Shown here piece by piece: positions 17,426 to 60,602 of a stretch of DNA of 64,000 bases (within the stretch, counting starts at the first letter, position 1; each line of letters opens with the position of its first letter). The stretch spans positions 248,001 to 312,000 of the forward strand of contig NZ_ACJX03000001.1 in assembly GCF_000160455.2 (NCBI RefSeq), in the 5' to 3' direction. Source of the stretch: Acetomicrobium hydrogeniformans ATCC BAA-1850. GTDB lineage: Bacteria > Synergistota > Synergistia > Synergistales > Acetomicrobiaceae. The notes beneath the pieces were generated by a model, which was given only the letters and a program-made list of their open reading frames with translations, ran no database searches and was not told the DNA's origin. Both the position numbers and the translations under genes were made by a program.

Positions 17426-17475
17426 TTTTCAATGGACACTTCGACAACGGCCGTTGTCGAAGTGTCCATTGAAAA
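17426..17475. repeat. 50-bp perfect palindrome (25-bp arms, no spacer)
   Basis: The arm ttttcaatggacacttcgac...(17426-17450) is followed immediately by its exact reverse complement (17451-17475). RNA from either strand would fold into a 23-24-bp stem with a tiny GGCC loop. Neither side is followed by a T run, so it is not a textbook intrinsic terminator. It sits between the MoaD-like gene and the nhaC ribosome site, 29 bases before the TTG start. Confidence 0.95.
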
Positions 17476-18949: not shown

Positions 18950-18982
18950 AAAAATAGAGGGGGGTAACCCCCCTCTATTTTT
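18950..18982. terminator. Bidirectional intrinsic terminator after nhaC
   Basis: A perfect 15-bp stem of aaaaatagagggggg and its complement with a 3-base loop. A T run follows on the plus strand and the mirrored A run serves the minus strand. It separates nhaC from the convergent unknown gene whose stop is 2 bases away. Confidence 0.93.
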
Positions 18983-43320: not shown

Positions 43321-43356
43321 AATAATTAAGCGGGAGGATCCTCCCGCTTAATTATT
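43321..43356. terminator. 36-bp perfect palindrome, bidirectional terminator
   Basis: Aataattaagcgggagga is followed immediately by its exact reverse complement (18-bp arms). The GC-rich centre and AT-rich flanks (TTAATTATTAT) on both strands act as terminator tails. It lies 18 bases after the fusion-protein stop and 25 bases before the EF-G stop, serving both convergent transcripts. Confidence 0.88.
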
Positions 43357-43381: not shown

Positions 43382-45466
43382 TTACTCTTCTTCCGCCTCA
43401 GCTTGAGCCTGAGCTATTATCTTTTTGGCCAGGTCTTGAGGGACTTCTTCGTAGTGAGAATATTCCATGGAGAAACTGCCTCGGCCCGAAGTCATGGAAC
43501 GAAGGACGATGGCATACCTGAACATTTCCGCAAGAGGCACTTGGGCCTTAACCACCTGGAATCTCCCTCTGCTCTCGATACCCATAATTCTCCCTCTTCT
43601 AGAGTTCAAATCGCCCATGACATCGCCCAGATACTCCTCGGGCACTACCACTTCCACGTTCATGATCGGTTCAAGCAAGACGGGAGAGCCTTCCATAAAA
43701 CACTTCTTGAAAGCCATTGAAGCTGCTATTTTAAAGGCCATTTCTGAAGAATCGACTTCATGGTAAGAGCCGTCGTAAAGAACGGCCTTAAAATCTATGG
43801 CAGGATAGCCGGCAAGGACACCCTTTTGAGCTGCCTCCCTTAGTCCTTTTTCGACGGCAGGAATGTACTGCTTGGGAACGACCCCACCGACAATGCGATC
43901 CTCAAACTCTACACCGCTGCCCCGCTCTGTAGGCTGCAACTCAAGCCACACGTCCCCGTATTGTCCTCGGCCACCGGTTTGCTTCTTGTATTTGCCTTGC
44001 GCTTTAGAGGGCTTTTTGATGGTCTCTCTATATGGAACTTTGGGTAAACGAGTTTCGAGTTCCACGCCATATCTTTCTTTAATGCGCGACAGGACTACAT
44101 CCAGATGTAAATCTCCCATGCCTGAAAGGAGGTGGTCTCCGGTTTCAACGTTTTTCTCATAGCGCAACGTGGAATCCTCTTCGAGCATGCGATGAATAGC
44201 GTTAGACAGCTTATCTTCGTCAGCCCTGCTTTTAGGAACGACTGCCAGGCTATAAATGGGGTTCGGAAATTGGATCGCGGGAAACGTAAAATCGACTCCC
44301 TTGACTGCAACGGTATCCCCAACACCGGCGTTTTGCAACTTGGGGATAGCCACAATGTCTCCCACTGTAACTTCCTTAACGTCCTTCCCTTCCTTGCCCC
44401 TCATGAACCTCAGAGAGCTTATCCTTTCCTCGACCTTTTTATTTACAATGAATACAGATTGATCCGAAGTCAAGGTCCCTGAAAATACTCTAACGAATGA
44501 TAGCTTTCCCACATAGGGATCGACCATGACTTTAAAACAGAGAGAGCTGAATTTCTCATTGGGATCGGGCTTCACTTCTACTTCATTGCCCTCTGCATCT
44601 ATCCCCTTTCTGGGAAACATATCTACTGGGGAGGGCAGAATATCGGTTATGGTATCTAAAAGCTGGAATATTCCGATATTCGCAAGAGCCGAACCGGGCA
44701 ATACGGGCATCACTATCCTGTTTAACACCGCCTTTTTCAATGCCTCTACCAACTCTTGTTCTTCCAGTTCTTCTCCGTCGAGGTAACGCATCATCAGCTC
44801 ATCGTCAACTTCGACTACCCTCTCCACCAAGGCTTCACGGGCAGAGGAAAGCCCTTCCTCGAGTTCGGAGGGACAATCAGTCTCCTCATACTCTCGACTT
44901 CCATCGCCTTTATATATAAAGGCCTTTCCGGTCAGCACATTTACTAAGCCTTTAAAATTTGTTTCTTGACCGACGGGCAAAAACAACGGAAGTGCTTTAT
45001 CCGTCAAAACCTCCTGAATTTCTTTCAATGTCCTGTAAAAATCAGCATTTTCCCTTTCCACTTTATTTATAAAAAACAGTACGGGTACGGAAAAATCCTC
45101 GGCAAAATCGAAGGCCTTTTCAGTTTGAACTTCCACGCCATCGACTCCGCTTACAACTATAACCGCCGAGTCAGCCACTCGCATTCCCGAACGCAGATCT
45201 CCAATGAAATCGGCATAACCAGGGGTATCAAGAACAAACATCCTTTTGCCATTATAGTCGAAGGTTGCGACAGATGTATTGATAGAAATCTGTCTCTTCT
45301 GTTCTTCGGCGTCATAATCGCTGACGGTATTGCCATCCTCTACTTTACCTAAACGTCCAATAACTTCCGCATCGAACAACATTGCCTCGACCAGCGATGT
45401 CTTTCCTGCACCTCCGTGAGCTGCTACCGCAATCGTTCTCGTATCCTCAGGTTTGTGCGCTCCCAT
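43382..45466 (-). CDS. EF-G-like translational GTPase (EF-G2 paralogue)
   Basis: This 694-residue protein has all five EF-G domains. The G1 loop is AHGGAGKTSLVEA, not the AHIDAGKTTTTE of standard EF-G. G3 is LDTPGYADF, and G4 reads FINKVERENADF (NKVE for NKxD). Those are hallmarks of the EF-G2/EF-G-like paralogue found in Thermotogae, Synergistetes and others; its role in translocation versus recycling is unsettled. It is the last gene of the long minus-strand run, 17 bases after gatB. Confidence 0.92.
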   Translation of the reverse strand: MGAHKPEDTRTIAVAAHGGAGKTSLVEAMLFDAEVIGRLGKVEDGNTVSDYDAEEQKRQISINTSVATFDYNGKRMFVLDTPGYADFIGDLRSGMRVADSAVIVVSGVDGVEVQTEKAFDFAEDFSVPVLFFINKVERENADFYRTLKEIQEVLTDKALPLFLPVGQETNFKGLVNVLTGKAFIYKGDGSREYEETDCPSELEEGLSSAREALVERVVEVDDELMMRYLDGEELEEQELVEALKKAVLNRIVMPVLPGSALANIGIFQLLDTITDILPSPVDMFPRKGIDAEGNEVEVKPDPNEKFSSLCFKVMVDPYVGKLSFVRVFSGTLTSDQSVFIVNKKVEERISSLRFMRGKEGKDVKEVTVGDIVAIPKLQNAGVGDTVAVKGVDFTFPAIQFPNPIYSLAVVPKSRADEDKLSNAIHRMLEEDSTLRYEKNVETGDHLLSGMGDLHLDVVLSRIKERYGVELETRLPKVPYRETIKKPSKAQGKYKKQTGGRGQYGDVWLELQPTERGSGVEFEDRIVGGVVPKQYIPAVEKGLREAAQKGVLAGYPAIDFKAVLYDGSYHEVDSSEMAFKIAASMAFKKCFMEGSPVLLEPIMNVEVVVPEEYLGDVMGDLNSRRGRIMGIESRGRFQVVKAQVPLAEMFRYAIVLRSMTSGRGSFSMEYSHYEEVPQDLAKKIIAQAQAEAEEE

Positions 45467-57580: not shown

Positions 57581-58324
57581 TCACAGACTTAACAACATCC
57601 TTATGGCGCTTACCGTCACCACAACAGACAGTATCAACCTTAACCACCTATTTCCTTTTAAAATGGCAAAATGCGCCCCTGCAATACCCCCCATGAAATT
57701 GCCTATTGCCAAAACGACACCTAATGGAAAGTTAACCATCCCGTTAAGGAGGAAAATCGCTAAGCTTAATGTGGTGAACATTGCTATGACTACGACTTTT
57801 AACGCATTGGCGTGAAGAAGATCCTTACCTCCCAGCCCGACAAGTGCCCATAAAAGGAAAAAACCTACACCCGCCTGTATAAATCCTCCGTAAACCCCTA
57901 TTAGAAACATGGCAAGGATCAAAACCCATCTGGGCAAGGAAATCTCGCGTTCGCGCTCCCACATATCCGGCTTCAATACCAAAAGTACGGCCATGCAACA
58001 TATCAACACTGCTACTGCTATCCTCAAATATCTCTCATCCAAACTAACCGCTCCAAATGTGCCCAAGGCAGCACCTAAAAGAGAGGGCAACCCAAAAAAC
58101 AAACAATCTTTGAGTCGAAAAAGTGATTTTTTATGAAAGTGTTGGGCAGCAAAGACGTTTTGAAACAAAACACCAACGCGATTGGTTGCGTTAGCCACCG
58201 ATACATCTAAACCCATAAAAACTAAAAGAGGTATGGTGAGCAGGCTTCCCCCTCCAGCTAACACGTTCAAAAAACCTGAGCAAAAACCAACGGCAATCAC
58301 TAATGCAACAGACAATATTGACAT
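57581..58324 (-). CDS. TSUP-family (TauE/SafE) anion exporter
   Basis: This 247-residue membrane protein has about seven hydrophobic segments. Repeated TauE/SafE motifs include GFLNVLAGGGSLLTIPLLV near the start and VYGGFIQAGVGFFLLWAL in the second half. It probably moves sulfite, sulfonates or other organic anions. ATG 58324 follows GGAGG; the longer frame to 58369 is not needed. It diverges from the secreted His-rich gene across 209 bases with regulatory sites. Confidence 0.88.
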   Translation of the reverse strand: MSILSVALVIAVGFCSGFLNVLAGGGSLLTIPLLVFMGLDVSVANATNRVGVLFQNVFAAQHFHKKSLFRLKDCLFFGLPSLLGAALGTFGAVSLDERYLRIAVAVLICCMAVLLVLKPDMWEREREISLPRWVLILAMFLIGVYGGFIQAGVGFFLLWALVGLGGKDLLHANALKVVVIAMFTTLSLAIFLLNGMVNFPLGVVLAIGNFMGGIAGAHFAILKGNRWLRLILSVVVTVSAIRMLLSL

Positions 58325-58473
58325 TAAGGTTCCTCCGATATTTTCAAAAAATTTTAATGAAATGTGCATGATAATTAAACCAAGCCATATGACTTTGTCA
58401 AGTATTGTTTTGCTTTAATATCCTGCCATTACACTCATTATCGCCTTCACCATCGGAAATCGCTGTGAAACCA

Positions 58474-58502
58474 TTGAAATTCTCTCCATTTTGGGATACA
58501 AT
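58474..58502 (+). promoter_or_regulatory. Sigma-70-type promoter of the His-rich secreted protein gene
   Basis: TTGAAA (58474-58479), 17-base spacer, TACAAT (58497-58502): both boxes differ from consensus by one base at ideal spacing. The start site would be near 58509, about 25 bases before the ATG. Confidence 0.78.
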
Positions 58503-58518
58503 TTAGGTAAACCTAAAT
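58501..58518. promoter_or_regulatory. 18-bp palindromic operator over the promoter
   Basis: ATTTAGGTAAACCTAAAT is a perfect palindrome (8-bp arms plus a central AA). It covers the end of the -10 box and the predicted start site, the usual place for a repressor. The half-site TTAGGT/ACCTAA resembles those of DtxR/IdeR-type metal regulators, though the arm spacing is shorter than the classic 19-bp DtxR box. Confidence 0.7.
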
Positions 58519-58533
58519 TAGAGGTGACATACC

Positions 58534-58950
58534 ATGAAAAAATCAGCAATAGCGGTGTTAGCGGTAACAATACTGATATGCTTTTTTGGCTTAGCTTTGG
58601 CTCAAGGAAGTTATGGATTCAATGGAAAACATTTAGGTTATACACAGCACAATATTTTTACTCCTAATACGATAAAAGAATGGAACCACGGACATGCGAC
58701 AAATCATATTGCAGGATACAGATATTATTCTGCCGTCGTGCCATATAAAGTCAAAATCCCCACTTACATAAACCATAACATACGTCACATACAACAACAT
58801 CGATTTAACTTACGATCAACATTGTATACAGATCCGGCAAACAGATTTAGGATATATCGTCTTCACGAATCGATGTTATCTCTTCAAAACGAAATCGATA
58901 GTTGGAAATCAAGACAAAAAATCAAACTGCACGACTTATATGAAAAATAA
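58534..58950 (+). CDS. Small secreted histidine-rich protein of unknown function (138 aa)
   Basis: I do not recognise a family. There is a clear signal peptide (positive start, hydrophobic residues ~5-22, cleavage after ALA). The mature part of about 115 residues is rich in His, Asn and Tyr; about ten histidines include WNHGHATNH and NHNIRHIQQH. The C-terminus is helical and charged (HESMLSLQNEIDSWKSRQK). It is monocistronic, preceded by a strong promoter, a palindromic operator and an AGAGGTG ribosome site. A periplasmic metal-binding role is inference from composition and from the operator's likeness to metal-regulator boxes. Confidence 0.8.
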   Translation: MKKSAIAVLAVTILICFFGLALAQGSYGFNGKHLGYTQHNIFTPNTIKEWNHGHATNHIAGYRYYSAVVPYKVKIPTYINHNIRHIQQHRFNLRSTLYTDPANRFRIYRLHESMLSLQNEIDSWKSRQKIKLHDLYEK

Positions 58951-59094: not shown

Positions 59095-59589
59095 ATGTCG
59101 ACACAGAGAACCCAACAAGACGATGTCATCCTTATGACACGTGAAGGATATCAGAAGTTGAGGGCCGAATTGATTAAACTAAGAAGCGAAGGCCGATCGG
59201 AAATATCTCAGCAACTCGAAGAGGCCAGATCCTTTGGCGATTTGAGCGAAAACGCAGAATATCATGCAGCTAAAGAGGCCCAGGCAAAACTAGAGGCCAG
59301 AATTCAACAGTTGGAAACACAGTTATCCAAAGCTAAAGTGATAGAGAACGACCAAATAGATACCAGCCAGGTGACTTTAGGGACCAAGGTAACATTGAAA
59401 GATTTGGACTTGAATAGAGAATTCACCTATGTAATCGTTAATTCGGAAGAAACCGATCCCAATAATCACAAAATTTCTGTCTCCAGTCCCGTAGGGCAGG
59501 CGATAATAGGAAAGAGCGTGGGAGATGAGGTTATAGCAAGGGCGCCTCGCGGCGTTAGACGTCTTAAAATTCTTAATATAGAAGTGTAA
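59095..59589 (+). CDS. greA: Transcription elongation factor GreA
   Basis: This 164-residue factor has an N-terminal coiled coil (EARSFGDLSENAEYHAAKEA; the acidic tip D and E rescue stalled RNA polymerase) and a C-terminal FKBP-like domain (ISVSSPVGQAIIGKSVGDEV). It stimulates transcript cleavage by RNA polymerase. AAGGAGG lies before ATG 59095. It is single-gene, convergent with ddl. Confidence 0.96.
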   Translation: MSTQRTQQDDVILMTREGYQKLRAELIKLRSEGRSEISQQLEEARSFGDLSENAEYHAAKEAQAKLEARIQQLETQLSKAKVIENDQIDTSQVTLGTKVTLKDLDLNREFTYVIVNSEETDPNNHKISVSSPVGQAIIGKSVGDEVIARAPRGVRRLKILNIEV

Positions 59590-59651: not shown

Positions 59652-60602
59652 TTAGAGCTTTTTATTCAGCGTATTTTGGATAAGTTCTTTCACAAATCTG
59701 TCGAAATCCCATCCGATCGCCTTTGCAGCTTTAGGGACCAAACTGGTACTCGTCAGTCCTGGAACAGTATTGACTTCCAATACATAGGGATTTCCTTGGG
59801 TATCGAGGCGCATATCTACCCTGCTGTACAGCTCACACCCCAAGCTGATATGGGCCATGAGCGCGGCCTCTTGAGCCTTTTTGGCGATCGAATCCTCTAA
59901 TTGCGCCGGCACGAAATATGCGCTGTTGCCGGGTGTATATTTCGCTTTATAGCTATAAAGCGAATTTTTGGGGACTATTTCGATTATAGGAAAGGCTTGT
60001 GGCTTGCCGTCATCCCAAACAGCAACGGTTATCTCTTTTCCAGAGATGTAACGCTCTGCAATGATAAGGCTATCGTAGCTTGAAGCCAGCTGAACAGCTT
60101 CATATAAGTCGCTGGAGGATGTAATGACGGAAACGCCCAATGTACTGCCACACCTCGCCGGTTTGATGACCATTTTACCGCCATTCAAAAAATAATCGTA
60201 GTATTCCAAGATTTTTTTGCAAGCGCCATTGATCCCCTCTTGAAATAAGTTGGCCTCAACACCATCGGGGGTGGGAATTCCGTCTCTTTGAAACCTGTAT
60301 TTACTCAATACTTTATTCATAGCAAGCATACATGCTTCAGATCCCGACCCTGTGTAGGGGATGTCGTAAAAATCAAGAAAGGCCTGCAACCTGCCATCTT
60401 CTCCCCAGCTTCCGTGTAAGGCTATAAATATTACATCGCAATCACGCTCATTCATCAGCCTAACTACGTCTTTGACCGTTTCAACACAGCCATCCAATAC
60501 ATCGAACCCACACCTTGAAGCTGCTTCCAATACAGCCTTCCCACTCGCCAAAGAGACCTCACGTTCCGGGCTATCGCCTCCATACAACACTAAAACTCTC
60601 AT
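59652..60602 (-). CDS. ddl: D-alanine--D-alanine ligase
   Basis: This 316-residue ATP-grasp enzyme of peptidoglycan synthesis has VLYGGDSPEREVSLASG at the N-terminus, ALHGSWGEDGRLQ, GSGSEACMLAMNKVLSK and YVLEVNTVPGLTSTSLVPKA. It joins two D-Ala in the cytoplasm. Its ATG overlaps the lptD stop by four bases, linking peptidoglycan and LPS-export genes in one transcript. Confidence 0.95.
   Translation of the reverse strand: MRVLVLYGGDSPEREVSLASGKAVLEAASRCGFDVLDGCVETVKDVVRLMNERDCDVIFIALHGSWGEDGRLQAFLDFYDIPYTGSGSEACMLAMNKVLSKYRFQRDGIPTPDGVEANLFQEGINGACKKILEYYDYFLNGGKMVIKPARCGSTLGVSVITSSSDLYEAVQLASSYDSLIIAERYISGKEITVAVWDDGKPQAFPIIEIVPKNSLYSYKAKYTPGNSAYFVPAQLEDSIAKKAQEAALMAHISLGCELYSRVDMRLDTQGNPYVLEVNTVPGLTSTSLVPKAAKAIGWDFDRFVKELIQNTLNKKL

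Follow-up and report, generated by a model that had tools for sequence, protein, structure and literature searches.

A candidate DtxR-type operator at the promoter of an exported, distantly ZraP-like protein in Acetomicrobium hydrogeniformans

What reads an inverted repeat that lies across the promoter of a single small gene, and what might the exported, histidine-rich product of that gene do? Both questions are raised by a locus in the anaerobe Acetomicrobium hydrogeniformans ATCC BAA-1850, within a stretch of 64,000 nucleotides referred to here as the window (G000:C1:248001-312000 of the 2.12-Mb genome). To our knowledge, the crossing of the periplasm by Fe(II) on its way to FeoB is not well explained in most bacteria. 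An exported protein whose gene carries a feoAB-type operator would be a concrete candidate for this step or, in an alternative role, for protection of the envelope at times of strong iron uptake. No published metal regulon for the phylum Synergistota was found in the open literature searched, and the sites described here offer a testable candidate iron regulon for this phylum, built on single-dimer DtxR sites. The reading favored here, which we consider probable, is that limitation for iron (or manganese) relieves DtxR-type repression of FeoAB and, at a single-dimer operator, of this gene, whose product would be a ZraP-like protein of the periplasm.

Promoter, inverted repeat, and conservation

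Features of the locus, with counterparts in another Acetomicrobium genome (G001), are as follows.

58474..58479, plus strand: -35 hexamer TTGAAA; same hexamer and 17-bp spacing in the G001 orthologue
58497..58502, plus strand: -10 hexamer TACAAT, with TTAGG directly 3'; TAAAAT in the G001 orthologue
58500..58519, plus strand: operator inverted repeat AATTTAGGT-AA-ACCTAAATT, overlapping the -10 and the probable transcription start
58503-58516, plus strand: operator core TTAGGTAAACCTAA, which fits the DtxR/IdeR single-dimer consensus TTAGGNNNNCCTAA
58519..58527, plus strand: Shine-Dalgarno region TAGAGGTGA; counterpart TAGGGGGTGA in the G001 orthologue
58534..58950, plus strand: gene for a 138-aa exported, basic, His-rich, apparently distant ZraP-like protein; the stop ends at 58950
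57581-58369, minus strand: TauE/SafE gene, the divergent left neighbor
59095-59589, plus strand: greA, the right neighbor

The promoter described in the original prediction, TTGAAA and TACAAT separated by a 17-bp spacer, is located at 58474-58502, and a Shine-Dalgarno sequence (AGAGGTGA) precedes the ATG at 58534. The inverted repeat said to overlap this promoter is also there, with arms of 9 bp; its center, however, is the asymmetric pair AA, and ATTTAGGTAAACCTAAAT departs from its own reverse complement at two central positions, so that calling it a perfect palindrome was slightly wrong.

Inverted repeats of such quality are not by themselves rare in the window, where 9-bp arms gave 13 overlapping matches at six places (versus 0-4 in Markov samples). 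It is because of its conservation that this operator is taken to be more than chance. The exact operator sequence occurs at one place in the 2.12-Mb genome; across the 101 Synergistales genomes searched, the exact 18-mer and TTTAGGTNNACCTAAA appear only at orthologous promoters, in three Acetomicrobium genomes. Promoter and operator are unchanged in G002 and G003, which says little because the whole stretch is ~98% alike. In G001, greA and miaB flank the syntenic orthologue as they flank the window gene, and its protein is only 35% identical to the window protein. Even so, 19 of the operator's 20 bases agree, and TTGAAA-17-TAAAAT is at the corresponding position; agreement falls to 16/30 in the 30 bp upstream and to 19/60 in the 60 bp before those. 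Each of the five Acetomicrobium genomes with an orthologue has a single copy of TTTAGGTAAACCTAA; the sixth, G004, where a protein search found no close match to the window protein, has none. On this comparative evidence, the operator is under selection.

A search for related loci in genome contigs returned only the Acetomicrobium MAGs UBA3949 and UBA5826, and a literature search with the 14-mer gave no match. The G001 locus (L037:2866-4098) is otherwise syntenic and has an amidohydrolase/carbamoylase-like gene in place of TauE/SafE; the neighbor has thus been exchanged while the operator-controlled gene stays. Further short-looped inverted repeats, their arms at least 9 bp long (such as TTCGACAACGGCCGTTGTCGAA, GCCTTTATATATAAAGGC, and TCGCTTTATAGCTATAAAGCGA, the last of which falls inside a D-ala-D-ala ligase gene) lie in the window at 17440-17461, 18956-18976, 43328-43349, 44906-44923, and 59942-59963.

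A DtxR-family regulator and its candidate sites

The suggestion that the repeat is a DtxR/IdeR-type operator is well supported, as a candidate assignment, by an exact core, a regulator encoded in the genome, a site in the same place at feoA, and the co-occurrence of that site with the regulator. DtxR and IdeR dimers bind repeats of CCTAA, with one dimer binding a half site in a study of IdeR, and TTAGGNNNNCCTAA has been proposed as the minimal consensus for a single-dimer IdeR site (PMC8464063). The window core TTAGGTAAACCTAA matches this consensus at 10/10 positions. As in the single-dimer operators of DtxR, IdeR, and MntR, it belongs to an inverted repeat that overlaps a promoter in a genome encoding the regulator, whereas the 19-bp DtxR/IdeR box contains a second, overlapping repeat that the window site lacks.

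The DtxR-family regulator that the original prediction called for is a protein of 164 aa (G000:C1:2025145-2025636), found in all six Acetomicrobium genomes, with both Pfam domains above cut-off (PF01325, 51.9 bits; PF02742, 71.3 bits). It is of the short two-domain type, without an SH3-like domain, and its best PDB relatives are SloR, MntR, and IdeR. Metal-site residues D13, C105, E108, and H109 and recognition-helix residues P42-T43 are invariant among 15 regulator orthologues; from a reading of the sequence, we take them to be the equivalents of DtxR M10, C102, E105, and H106 and of P39-T40. At D13 the protein resembles MntR and at C105-x-x-E108-H109 DtxR, and with this mixed set of Asp and Cys ligands both Fe and Mn are possible as the metal sensed. 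The same genome holds a remnant of a second DtxR-family gene (G000:C1:2031121-2031342; L047), an open frame of 74 aa, interrupted by TGA and TAA, that is 59% identical to the intact regulator and also occurs in the same-species genome G101.

The original prediction was to fail if the genome lacked both a DtxR-family regulator and further sites near metal genes; this check did not refute it, since the regulator is encoded and related sites lie near feoA, although no identical 18-mer was found elsewhere. In all six Acetomicrobium genomes, the -10 box of the feoA promoter is immediately followed by TTTGG(C/T)TAGGCTAA (also written AAATTTGG(C/T)TAGGCTAACTT), a position that parallels that of TTAGG after TACAAT in the window; these sites fit the core at only 8/10 positions. 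In the related family f8, the -10 of the feoA promoters runs straight into an exact TTAGGCATGCCTAA/TTAGGCAGGCCTAA, for example in TATAAG-TTAGGCATGCCTAA. Among 30 Synergistales feoA promoters, the pattern TT[ATC]GGNNNN[CG]CTAA was found in 14/16 genomes with a regulator orthologue and 3/14 without (Fisher p = 6e-4, for related genomes and with kinship ignored), or, counted by family, in 4/5 families with the regulator versus 0/4 without. Two of the three regulator-less genomes with a site are MAGs, 56% and 73% complete. The pattern had no match on the same strand in 94.6 kb of control sequence from feoB and downstream. Because it was loosened after some sites had been inspected, and because the genomes are related, the co-occurrence supports the pairing of site and regulator but does not prove it.

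Only about three candidate sites were found in the A. hydrogeniformans genome, and looser matches to the degenerate motif run near control level. The third exact site, TTAGGGTTACCTAA, stands just after the -10 of the TTGACA-17-TAAAAT promoter of a nitroreductase gene (L199:2401-3102; G000:C1:996900-997601). This gene is convergent with a neighbor encoding a rubrerythrin-VIT1 fusion (ferritin-VIT1), presumably of the type described as iron exporters and here a possible iron exporter. A one-mismatch site at tpx (thiol peroxidase), TTTAGCTAGACCTAAA, was considered as a second target and dropped because its sequence has decayed in G001 and G004 and its position is upstream of the probable promoter. 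Upstream of tpx (L002:1448-1516; G000:C1:727375-727443) there are also two to three stacked inverted repeats (GTTTATGTAAATTTACATAAA, AAATTTAGCTAGACCTAAATA), kept in close relatives only. A core-exact site near an acetamidase-like gene (L003), TTAGGGATACCTAA, is left out of the set of repressor sites because it is upstream of the likely -35. No such box was found upstream of the znuA operon. A Fur-family gene lies directly upstream of znuA (L100:945-1421, G000; closest models IrrA/PerR), with a counterpart beside znuA in G001, G003, and G004, and is likely a local zinc regulator.

Two other accounts of the repeat deserve weighing. It may be a real operator read by a different dimeric repressor dedicated to the window gene (for example of GntR, MarR, or TetR type), its resemblance to DtxR sites being coincidental. 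Such a repressor would suit a full 18-mer that is single copy in each genome and has no regulator gene adjoining it, and other winged-helix regulators must exist in the genome; yet the core is an exact match to the published half site of DtxR/IdeR and shares its register relative to the -10 with the feoA sites, which themselves track the DtxR-family regulator, and we regard the alternative as unlikely. Far less credible is action in RNA, as a 5' stabilizing hairpin AAUUUAGG-UAAA-CCUAAAUU. An 8-bp stem with a 4-nt loop could indeed form from the repeat, but because the left arm shares bases with the -10 hexamer, transcription from the expected start at about 58509 would leave out most of that arm. 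Moreover, sites of this type at other promoters have different stem sequences.

The exported protein and its distant relatives

The original prediction of a small exported protein with about ten histidines agrees with the 138-aa product, which has a visible signal peptide (about residues 1-23, with an A-x-A site whose two alanines are invariant in relatives), a mature part of 115 aa with ten His (33, 39, 52, 54, 58, 81, 85, 89, 111, 133), and a computed pI of 9.9. In the AlphaFold model, residues 77-99 and 104-137 are helical, for the most part with pLDDT >90, and residues 22-65 are disordered. Foldseek found no significant structure match for it (none below E 1.7; CnrX at E 4.9).

The view that it belongs to no recognized family holds for curated models, none of which reaches cut-off in Pfam or NCBIfam, but not for more distant relatives: the protein is one of a Synergistales group, found in 16/61 genomes searched, with profile homology to ZraP. 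Members share an A-x-A signal peptide, a variable middle that is H/M/G/W-rich or disordered, and the conserved hairpin LHEKMLSLxxEIxRW. The group profile matches E. coli ZraP 66-113 at 88.6% (hhalign, E 2.6e-6 over 48 residues) and CpxP, Spy, and the control Skp at 0.8-3% (CpxP and Spy about 1%, Skp 3%). The best PDB profile match is ZraP (3lay, E 0.022). For PF13801 (Metal_resist), on which E. coli ZraP scores 82 bits, the window protein gives no match and 3/20 relatives appear at E 0.02 or worse, none past cut-off. A Pfam CoV_S2 match (E 0.042) was set aside as chance coiled-coil similarity. Overall, the protein looks like a very diverged relative of ZraP-like proteins.

ZraP, the zinc-resistance-associated periplasmic protein of enterobacteria, binds zinc in the periplasm and is upregulated by ZraSR (PMC3852070). 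The window group resembles it in small size, Sec export, and the conserved hairpin, and the N-terminal H/G/W-rich stretch of the paralogues recalls HGGHGMW of ZraP. In contrast, the window gene has no adjoining ZraSR-type system and, being under a DtxR-type operator, is predicted to be on at low metal, unlike ZraP. CpxP and Spy are similar in size, export, and helical character; one relative stands beside an OmpR-type response regulator, and some match CpxP models weakly (NF009391, E 0.005). No LTxxQ motif, however, was seen.

Predicted control and possible function

Under the favored reading, the repeat would serve as a single-dimer operator for the 164-aa regulator. With enough Fe(II) (or Mn), the metal-loaded protein bound at TTAGGTAAACCTAA would cover the -10 and the start and block transcription; metal shortage would derepress the window gene together with feoAB. 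Since the operator is of the same type as that of the ferrous-iron importer, the protein is probably made when iron runs low. It would leave the cytoplasm by the Sec route and act in the periplasm as a small helical-hairpin protein descended from ZraP-like proteins; while Fe(II) uptake is switched on, its likeliest task would be to bind or buffer a divalent metal or to shield envelope proteins.

The NHGHATNH cluster is kept only in 90%-identical relatives; the G001 orthologue has five His rather than ten, with essentially H89 in common. Because the cluster is lost in this 35%-identical orthologue, metal binding is plausible rather than proven. By dN/dS estimates (about 0.5-0.6 for relatives against the window gene and >1 between two relatives), the gene is evolving fast.

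Another possibility shares the DtxR-type control and differs only in the role of the protein, which would be an envelope chaperone of the ZraP/Spy kind or have a structural function in the periplasm, its His being incidental. We hold this to be a serious contender, though doubtful as it stands. The lost His cluster fits it, as do an N-terminal half predicted to be disordered and a family whose conserved part is the hairpin rather than the His-rich part; against it, paralogues are H/M/W/G-rich and near metal-transporting ATPases, and ZraP is itself a binder of periplasmic zinc (PMC3852070). At the other extreme, the protein may have become a periplasmic carrier or buffer of Fe(II) (or Mn) from a ZraP-like ancestor, co-induced with FeoAB by way of a one-dimer DtxR-type operator and handing Fe(II) to FeoB. 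This is a long shot; if true, it would give Feo a periplasmic partner not described before.

In other genomes, paralogues and relatives have P-type metal ATPases close by or, in one case, an OmpR-type response regulator alongside. Within A. hydrogeniformans, ~700 bp separate a G/W/M-rich paralogue (L038:8185-8631; G000:C1:702184-702630) from a P-type ATPase of the copper type (HMA + E1-E2). Three relatives (L016, L027, and L028) have in common an upstream block like GGGGTATACT...GAATACCGAGG, which may be another metal operator.
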